Positions 15,558 through 17,106 of a stretch of DNA of 34,282 bases are shown here, one piece after another. The notes under the pieces are model-generated. The model had not been told where the DNA came from and made no database searches. It was given only the letters and a program-made list of their open reading frames with translations. The stretch comes from Gammaproteobacteria bacterium (GTDB lineage: Bacteria > Pseudomonadota > Gammaproteobacteria > Eutrophobiales > Eutrophobiaceae). The stretch spans positions 1 to 34,282 of the forward strand of contig JAPORZ010000211.1 of NCBI GenBank assembly GCA_026709915.1, in the 5' to 3' direction. The translations under genes were made by a program, and so were the position numbers. Positions within the stretch are counted from its first letter, which is position 1; each line of letters begins with the position of its first letter.

Positions 15558-16442
15558 CTAACGCAAGGAAATATAGTCGCGGGGATTGACGTTGCTACCG
15601 TTTTTGACAACCTCAAAATGGACATGGGCGCCAGTGCTGCGGCCGGTACTGCCCATGATCGCGATCGTCTGTCCTTTTTCAACGCGCTCCCCGACATTGA
15701 CGAGGTTCTCCTTGTTGTGGGCATAACGGGTCATATAACCATTGCCGTGACTGATCTCAACCATGTTGCCGTAGCCCTTGTAGCGACCCGACCAGGTCAC
15801 GATACCGGAGGCGATGGTCGTTACCGCCATACCGACCCTGCCCGCCATATCAATACCCGGATGAAACGCTCTACGCCCGGATATGGGATCGGCGCGATAA
15901 CCGAACGACGATGAAATCCAGCTCCCCTGCGCGGGGTTGCCCAGCGGCCGCGCCTGGGATTGCAGGTCTCTGCCCATAAGCATGGTCTCCATTGCCGACA
16001 ACTTATCCTGGCGATCCTGCAGGGCAAATTCCAACTGGTTGAGAGAGGTGAGAAAATCATAAGACGACAAACTCTGCGACGCCTCATGAAGCGGCGGCCG
16101 CGGCCCGCCCAGACCGGGCGGGCTCTCCAGCCCGAACTCAATGTCATCCAGTTGCGTCAGGTCTGCCAAGCGGGCGCCCAGGGCATCCAGCCTTAACACG
16201 TGGCTCTGCATCAGGCTCACGCGCCCGGCCATGGCGTCCAAGGCCGTCTGCGTCTCTCCTTTTACGTCTTCGAGAACCTGCACCTGCTCTGCAATAGCCT
16301 GCTTGTGCAGGTACGCGCCGCGCAAATCTGCAAGATATCCGAACAACGCAACAACCGCCACCAGCGCCACCGCGACGCTGCCCCTGCCGATAGACAGGTG
16401 CAACGGCTTTTTCCTGTTGCGCGGAAAGATTATAATTTGCAT
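15558..16442 (-). CDS. M23 family zinc metallopeptidase (membrane anchored)
   Basis: Predicted periplasmic peptidoglycan endopeptidase or LytM-type factor. A single membrane segment lies at about residues 22-38 (VAVALVAVVALFGYLA), followed by a coiled-coil stretch (about 45-165), then a LytM domain with HPGID (H and D zinc ligands), RYAH, and AHVHFEV. All zinc ligands are present, so it is probably active. The start ATG 16442 (MQIIIFPRNRKK) has AGAGGTG about 6 nt upstream; that site lies inside a 9-bp hairpin (16448-16468). A longer frame from 16496 would run through the palindromes and is rejected. M23 genes upstream of secA are common in non-enteric gammaproteobacteria. Confidence 0.93.
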   Translation of the reverse strand: MQIIIFPRNRKKPLHLSIGRGSVAVALVAVVALFGYLADLRGAYLHKQAIAEQVQVLEDVKGETQTALDAMAGRVSLMQSHVLRLDALGARLADLTQLDDIEFGLESPPGLGGPRPPLHEASQSLSSYDFLTSLNQLEFALQDRQDKLSAMETMLMGRDLQSQARPLGNPAQGSWISSSFGYRADPISGRRAFHPGIDMAGRVGMAVTTIASGIVTWSGRYKGYGNMVEISHGNGYMTRYAHNKENLVNVGERVEKGQTIAIMGSTGRSTGAHVHFEVVKNGSNVNPRDYISLR

Positions 16443-16447
16443 AAGGT

Positions 16448-16468
16448 CACCTCTAATTTTTAGAGGTG
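16448..16468 (-). promoter_or_regulatory. Hairpin covering the ribosome site of the M23 gene
   Basis: CACCTCTAA, TTT, TTAGAGGTG form perfect 9-bp arms. On the mRNA (minus strand) the 3' arm UUAGAGGUG is the Shine-Dalgarno sequence of the M23 gene, 5 nt before its AUG, so the site is fully paired in the folded state. It may act as a simple translational switch. It is also a copy of the dispersed repeat seen before ftsZ. Confidence 0.6.
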
Positions 16469-16473
16469 GCCGT

Positions 16474-16601
16474 GCAGTATAGGGATATACTGCCATTTTT
16501 AAGCACGTAAGTGCTTGAAAATGACGGAAACGGAATGTCCCACTTTTTCGGGCATTTTTCCGTTTCCGTCTCTAAAAATGCCACGGAGGGCATTTTTAGA
16601 G
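16474..16601. repeat. Array of four further palindromes in the M23-dciA divergent gap
   Basis: Directly after the hairpin at 16448-16468 come four more inverted repeats: (a) GCAGTATA-GGGA-TATACTGC, 16474-16493; (b) CATTTTTAAGCAC (16494-16506) and GTGCTTGAAAATG (16511-16523), one mismatch; (c) GACGGAAACGGAA (16523-16535) and TTCCGTTTCCGTC (16558-16570) with CCC/GGG inside; (d) CTCTAAAAATGCC (16570-16582 region, first base shared with c) and GGCATTTTTAGAG (16589-16601). They tile the gap almost without unpaired bases. The array begins and ends with copies of TTTTTAGAGGT (16457-16467 and 16593-16603). Confidence 0.85.
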
Positions 16602-16638
16602 GTTCCCATAATATAAAACGCCCACGCTGATTCAGACA

Positions 16639-17106
16639 ATGATTAACCATAATGCGTCGCCAATTCATTCACTTGCTGACATTGTTACCGCGTCAGGCAG
16701 ATTGTCACAAATTCTTGATCATATAGAAAATATAAACAGATTACAAGCAAAATTATCCAAATATCTGGATGCTCCGCTCAATCAGCATGTGGTGGTGGCA
16801 GATTACCAGCAACAAACACTGGTGCTGCATGCCGACAGCGCGGCCTGGACCACTCGCCTGCGTTACCGCACGCGTGAACTGCTTGCAGTCTTCAAAACCG
16901 ATCTCCCCGAACTGTGCACAATCCATATTAAAAACCGCCCCCCGGCGCCATCCCGCCGGACTGCTCGTCAGGCTGCCCGGGTCTCTGCCGCAGCGGCCAG
17001 CGCCCTGCGCGCGGCAGCCGACGGCATTGCCGACCCATCCCTGCGCGCCGCGTTACTCAAAATAGCCGGTACTGCAACTGCTTGTTCTACTACAGAGGAC
17101 GCCTGA
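16639..17106 (+). CDS. dciA: DciA (DUF721) replicative helicase loader-like protein
   Basis: DciA recruits the DnaB helicase in bacteria that lack the phage-derived DnaC. The 155-residue protein has the DUF721 core: LSKYLDAPLNQHVVVADYQQQTLVL, then HADSAAWTTRLRYRTRELL, then the LCTIHIKNRP strand. The C-terminal 45 residues are Ala/Arg-rich and probably disordered. ATG 16639; upstream is an AT-rich TATAATATAAA-like stretch at about 16607-16617 that could hold a -10 box. It lies divergent from the M23 gene and convergent with lpxC. DUF721 genes lie between lpxC and secA in many gammaproteobacteria, which supports the call. Confidence 0.88.
   Translation: MINHNASPIHSLADIVTASGRLSQILDHIENINRLQAKLSKYLDAPLNQHVVVADYQQQTLVLHADSAAWTTRLRYRTRELLAVFKTDLPELCTIHIKNRPPAPSRRTARQAARVSAAAASALRAAADGIADPSLRAALLKIAGTATACSTTEDA

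Follow-up and report, generated by a model that had tools for sequence, protein, structure and literature searches.

A miniature five-hairpin element with IS5-type ends and putative CsrA-binding loops inserted between an M23 peptidase gene and dciA

Bacterial MITEs (miniature inverted-repeat transposable elements) are usually regarded as transient, each being a deletion derivative of a single insertion sequence and confined to one genus. Other mobile repeats of comparable length, such as bcr1 of the Bacillus cereus group and the Correia elements of Neisseria (~100–160 bp), show conserved RNA folding and can be transcribed, and are likewise limited to one genus or group; Correia elements duplicate TA, and REPs leave no target duplication. 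QMITE1 and QMITE2 of Coxiella burnetii are gammaproteobacterial MITEs with stable RNA folds and are a source of small RNAs; QMITE2 is 150–190 bp long, their direct repeats are 2–3 nt (QMITE1) or 7–11 nt (QMITE2), and no orthologues of QMITE1 have been reported outside Coxiella (PMC5896051). Among RNAs that bind CsrA, the antagonist RNAs CsrB/CsrC and RsmX/Y/Z present GGA in hairpin loops in an ANGGAX context (PMC4005645, PMC7652899). The high-affinity CsrA/RsmE site is an ANGGAX hexaloop atop a stem (PMC4005645), and SELEX gave the consensus RUACARGGAUGU, its GGA being located in hairpin loops (PMC7652899). MITEs, small RNAs derived from them (PMC5896051) and RNAs that bind CsrA have all been described before.

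The window, i.e. the whole stretch of DNA analysed, is 34,282 nucleotides long and contains an M23 peptidase gene (15558–16442, − strand; Pfam PF01551, E = 4.6e-32) and dciA (16639–17106, + strand; Pfam PF05258, E = 3.2e-12) in divergent orientation. A preliminary description of this DNA reported that five palindromes tile the gap between the two genes from 16448 to 16603. All five were recovered by a repeat search as adjacent inverted repeats (16445–16471, 16474–16493, 16494–16523, arms 16523–16535/16558–16570 and arms 16570–16582/16589–16601), together with a direct repeat, ATTTTTAGAGGT, at 16456–16467 and 16592–16603. The + strand folds into exactly five hairpins at −88.9 kcal/mol (z = −11.3), compared with −40.1 ± 4.3 kcal/mol for shuffles of the region, none of 200 of which was as good, and the − strand also folds strongly (z = −10.1). 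The run of palindromes is thus real, but the extent first given was slightly short; the true unit spans 16445–16607 and is flanked on each side by a 4-bp duplication, ATAA, at 16441–16444 (overlapping the M23 start codon) and 16608–16611.

These boundaries, with the element in H1-to-H5 orientation on the + strand, are given by a full-length covariance-model match (152.4 bits, 16445–16607), by copies in the same genome and by the empty site in relatives. Hairpin H1 (16445–16471), which constitutes the left terminal inverted repeat, has a 12-bp stem in the predicted fold, with compensatory change in 10 of 10 modelled pairs. H2 (16474–16493) carries the loop A-G-GGA-T at 16481–16486, with the GGA at 16483–16485. 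H3 (16494–16523) consists of a 13-bp stem, with compensatory change in all 13 modelled pairs and a conserved U-G wobble, and a GUAA (GNRA-type) loop. H4 (16524–16569) shows compensatory change in 10 of 12 modelled pairs. H5 (16570–16601), which forms part of the right terminal inverted repeat, displays the hexaloop ACGGAG at 16583–16588, with the GGA at 16585–16587; the loops of H2 and H5 are both of the CsrA/RsmE type. The last bases of the right terminal repeat, GTTCCC (16602–16607), form an unpaired outer tip, and their TTCC end is common to the elements of other families and to IS5-group insertion sequences (see below). The M23-dciA copy is 163 bp long instead of the usual 151 bp, the difference being a 12-nt longer H4, and this longer H4 loop defines a subfamily that includes this copy and six others. 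H4 of the 151-bp form is capped by AAAA-YCRCRY-TTTT; in the H4 loops of many genomes, AAAA-YCRCRY-UUUU represents a second strongly conserved loop motif (alignment A4, columns 135–144 and 201–204), which is missing from the longer variant at M23-dciA.

An empty M23-dciA site was found in four same-genus loci or genomes, G003/G006, G005 and G002 having a short gap that lacks the element. When the element and one ATAA were deleted in silico, CAT, 29 bp and ATG remained, the 29 bp being the same as in G003. These comparisons show that the M23-dciA gap received the element in this lineage and that ATAA was duplicated in the process. The insertion point is immediately at the start codon of M23 (ATG, 16442–16440, − strand, the same start position as in relatives), which abuts the element and was kept by the duplication (TTAT), whereas the dciA start codon lies 31 nt past the right end. 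The spacing between the two start codons was widened by 167 bp (16442–16639; relatives L295–L298). In same-genus relatives, a mere ~29 bp separate the start codon of M23-secA from that of dciA, so each promoter probably resides inside the coding region of the other gene. On the + strand, the element is situated in the dciA leader in the sense orientation. On the − strand, its end gives GAGGTGACCTTATG, a candidate Shine-Dalgarno-like sequence that would nevertheless lie within the H1 stem, and a promoter-like match (TTGTCT-18-TATATT) would drive transcription through the element. Followed further upstream, the M23 ORF continues into the element as far as an ATG at 16496 on the − strand (16440–16496). 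Since relatives show that the true M23 start is 16442, an automatic gene call from 16496 may be wrong, and gene callers may likewise stretch ORFs into other copies of the element.

A local regulatory structure that evolved for the divergent M23-secA/dciA pair, be it an operator cluster or an RNA leader, could be proposed from the way the palindromes fill the intergenic gap and from the promoter-like match on the − strand, and a multi-site operator for the two genes had indeed been suggested at the outset. The operator proposal fails because the insertion is recent and is missing from the gap in same-genus relatives, where the same gene pair is separated by 29 bp, and because the element lies beside unrelated genes elsewhere. 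As an origin of the structure, this reading is refuted by the empty site, the target duplications and the dispersed copies, and overall we assign it almost no probability.

In the genome carrying the element, a 258-contig draft, at least 40 near-full-length copies with 81–100% identity were identified (173-bp query; 40 scored places among 386 candidates), and the 13-mer CTCTAAAAATGCC occurs 226 times, compared with once for the reversed control. The covariance model gave ~26 full-span matches of at least 109 bits in ~672 kb of contigs from this genome, a set that was partly picked for holding copies and that also contains numerous truncated copies and others lying at the ends of contigs. Extrapolation from the seven full-span copies in the consecutive contigs C1–C20 (340 kb) yields roughly 50 copies in this genome. 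The sister species G003, of the same genus, contains 23 copies that are 93–100% identical, indicating that the family moved recently. With respect to genes, the orientation of the copies is unbiased, and their sites are not preferentially between convergent genes. No DNA match to the element was found in plasmids, phages or E. coli. The preliminary description had named a purely local sequence, with no similar structure in relatives and no other genomic copies, as the outcome that would speak against its proposals; further genomic copies and similar structures in relatives are clearly present.

The aligned copies stop sharply at GGNNACCTCT...AGAGGTNNCY, and the terminal inverted repeats are GGNNACCTCT and AGAGGTNNCC, the sequence being GGAASCTCTGA in most other genera. 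Exact 4-bp duplications flank 18 of 23 copies in G000 and 13 of 14 in G003, compared with ~9% for shuffled flanks; within the element's own genus they are AT-rich and looser than YTAR, TTAA being the commonest. In 60 elements of other genera that end in the canonical GGAA...TTCC, and whose boundaries were fixed without reference to the flanks, exact duplications number 38 (13% when the flanks are shuffled). YTAR, the target-duplication motif of IS5 (PMC10359306), accounts for 29 of the 38. The element is 151–163 bp long, non-coding and multi-copy, contains no transposase gene, and has terminal inverted repeats, target duplications and both occupied and empty sites, as do MITEs. We therefore regard it as virtually certain that it is a mobile MITE, and the early suggestion, a miniature mobile element bounded by ACCTCTAA...TTAGAGGT, is borne out by the many copies, the exact duplications and the empty site in relatives.

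Solo H5 and solo H1 derivatives with intact 4-bp duplications were also observed (L109, C61:15215–15266, and L125, C61:30074, in G003; L073 in G005). They are probably either internal deletions between the ATTTTTAGAGGT/CTCTAAAAAT direct repeats or separately mobile palindromes. Lone ends in G003 that were considered as a possible full insertion sequence proved to be solo H1/H5 derivatives, truncated copies or contig ends.

A repeat of the REP/BIME or Correia type, functioning mainly in 3′-end protection, as a terminator or as an RNase III target, would also be intergenic, high in copy number and strongly hairpinned on both strands, and H2 with its T-rich tail contains one weak terminator-like match. 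The fixed ~151-bp architecture, the 4-bp YTAR duplications, the IS5-type ends and the lack of preference for sites between convergent genes all argue against this possibility, which we consider very improbable. Membership of the RAYT-dependent REP/BIME group was specifically rejected, the unit being ~151 bp long with 4-bp duplications, whereas REPs are 20–40-bp units (PMC3733652).

The termini point instead to IS5-group insertion sequences, which encode DUF772 (PF05598) DDE transposases and resemble the element in their terminal inverted repeats (16–18 bp identical between the two) and their 4-bp YTAR duplications; the element differs from them in lacking a transposase gene, in its length (~151 bp rather than ~1.2 kb) and in its unrelated five-hairpin interior. 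Co-resident members of this group with DUF772 transposases (1.16–1.22 kb), having the same ends and a 4-bp duplication, were found in seven element-bearing genomes (G338, G296, G117, G045, G160, G127 and G362). The partner in G338 is 1171 bp long with GGAACCTCTGATTAATTCCC and the duplication ATAA, and that in G296 is 1220 bp long with GGAAACGCTGATTTATTCCC and the duplications CTAG, CTAA and TTAG. In G296, the insertion sequence and the elements both carry the rare variant CGCTGA, indicating that the ends track the resident transposase. Only the outer 16–18 bases are common to the elements and their partners, and we infer that the interior is not a remnant of an IS5-group insertion sequence. 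Searches with PF01609 and PF05598 detected no end-matching insertion sequence in the draft genome carrying the M23-dciA copy or in its close relatives, and a search with an over-specific terminal pattern returned only further MITE copies. Mobilisation of the element in trans by IS5-group transposases that recognise the same ends is very probable. In G045, one element (L191) has the same H2–H4 core with quite different ends (GGAGGGTGTCGC...) and the duplication TCAA, which suggests that the core can change its transposase partner. In G160, an IS5-group insertion sequence and an element lie back to back with CTAA in common (L203, ~776–2091), an arrangement that is a nested or adjacent insertion at a duplicated target.

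In other genera, weak matches were recognised as elements of very different sequence whose five hairpins are the same and follow one another in the same succession. From 22 of these elements, a covariance model (R1) was derived, which detected the element in 67 of 369 gammaproteobacterial genomes and 52 of 272 genera (E ≤ 1e-4), and nearly all of the elements found across the class are 149–154 bp long and have duplications. All 92 of the aligned elements fold into exactly five hairpins. In their alignment (A4), 95.3% of the cells are paired, compensatory (double) changes occur in 49 of 56 pairs, double-changed cells number 983 (249 expected from shuffles), and the covariation score is 0.565 (0.172 when shuffled and 0.07–0.12 when slid), these counts being limited by the relatedness of the sequences and by the fitting of A4 to the covariance model. 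The first alignment, made with MAFFT and not fitted to structure, shows the same trend, with compensatory changes in 19 of 44 pairs. No match above the gathering score was obtained in Rfam 15 for either the M23-dciA copy or diverged copies, and no homology to CsrB/CsrC or RsmX/Y/Z was detected in the Rfam search. Neither this family, nor a MITE covarying across a class, nor CsrA loops in a MITE were found to be described in Rfam 15 or in the open-access literature searched, where the relevant papers dealt with MITEs and CsrA in general and the terminal sequences led to unrelated work, such as articles on human genes and primers.

Strand asymmetry was analysed by counting single mismatches flanked by Watson-Crick pairs as distinct events per genome, after folding without G-U so that both strands were treated alike. 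On the H1-to-H5 strand, G-U mismatches outnumber A-C mismatches by 49 to 18 (p = 2e-4; 19 genomes versus 3), although shared ancestry is only partly removed from these counts; the same test on the reverse complements gave the mirror image. The excess is mostly in H2 (9:0) and H3 (20:4), and in G000 alone the distinct events (14:7) are not significant. In 78 of the 91 cases in which the two strands fold unequally well, the + strand has the better fold. The excess of G-U over A-C on one strand points to selection on the RNA of the H1-to-H5 strand, and this strand is the same as that carrying the GGA loops. The ‘structured RNA’ that had been offered as an alternative to a mobile element is thus supported, by the covariation and by the G-U excess on one strand, as an additional property of that element.

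It could still be argued that the palindromes matter only as DNA, by aiding the transposase, in replication-coupled movement or through resistance to decay, with the RNA being incidental. The termini are the sole parts in common with insertion sequences, the solo H1/H5 derivatives with intact duplications imply that the interior is unneeded for persistence, and the lack of orientation bias relative to genes is likewise as expected. Selection at the DNA level, however, is blind to the 49:18 asymmetry, and neither the GGA in two loops on the same strand only nor the better folding of the + strand is accounted for. We thus consider a role as DNA alone unlikely, and selection on the element at the RNA level likely.

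The loop sequences provide a candidate for what is selected. Among the 92 elements, which derive from 30 or so other genomes, GGA is present in the H2 loop of 89 and in the H5 loop of 88, with 0–1 occurrences in H1, H3 and H4. The H2 loop columns read A (1.00), N, G (0.98), G (0.98), A (1.00) and X, closed by C (0.99) and G (1.00). In the M23-dciA copy, both GGA loops are predicted to be fully unpaired, whereas two other GGAs are buried in stem. Both H2 and H5 correspond to an ANGGAX hexaloop placed directly on a stem, as far as sequence and fold can tell. Across the family, an A-U pair closes many H2 loops and reduces the predicted loop to NGGA, and H5 loops are often 3–5 nt long rather than the ideal hexaloop, some being a nucleotide short or paired more tightly. 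The csrA gene was found in 53 of 59 element-bearing genomes, including the one carrying the M23-dciA copy, and in 49 of 51 of good quality; no csrA was detected in two good-quality genomes, G158 and G231. To our knowledge, csrA is close to universal in Gammaproteobacteria, and its co-occurrence with the element is therefore weak evidence. On balance, we lean slightly towards recognition of the element RNA by CsrA. The unbiased orientation of the copies with respect to genes speaks against cis regulation as a general role, and that reading was dropped; whether dciA or M23 is affected in this organism is rather doubtful.

Compared with the systems described above, the element resembles the QMITEs in kind and QMITE2 in size, but its 4-bp duplications differ from their direct repeats, and class-wide covariation, IS5 ends and CsrA loops are not described for them (PMC5896051). 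It shares GGA loops with CsrB/CsrC and RsmX/Y/Z, which are dedicated single-copy genes with many such loops, whereas the element is transposable, multi-copy and has two. Its ends and target duplications also differ from those of bcr1 and Correia elements.

Taken as a whole, the structure between M23 and dciA is probably an insertion of an IS5-type MITE whose interior is selected as RNA and bears putative CsrA loops. Ordinary MITEs decay, whereas the interior of this ~151-bp run of five hairpins would be maintained by selection on the H1-to-H5-strand RNA. Read-through transcription of the copies would yield an RNA that displays two CsrA/RsmA-type GGA loops (H2 and H5) on stable stems, and each element would thus act as a portable CsrA site, able to bind or titrate CsrA. 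Neighbouring mRNAs, here the dciA 5′ leader, may thereby be placed under Csr influence. A broader proposal, which we hold only tentatively, is that the family is an ancient, class-wide, IS5-mobilised lineage, in effect a mobile CsrA-binding RNA gene of which the RNA and not the DNA is preserved, its copies throughout the genome jointly soaking up CsrA like a sponge or providing portable sites of Csr control. In contrast to the usual view of MITEs, a five-hairpin element is present in many families of one class; its stems show strong compensatory change, and its strand bias points to RNA. If this is confirmed, some non-autonomous elements would be RNA genes that persist for long periods on borrowed transposases, and the CsrA link would tie transposon load to the principal post-transcriptional regulator of the class. 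The covariance model allows copies of the element to be annotated.
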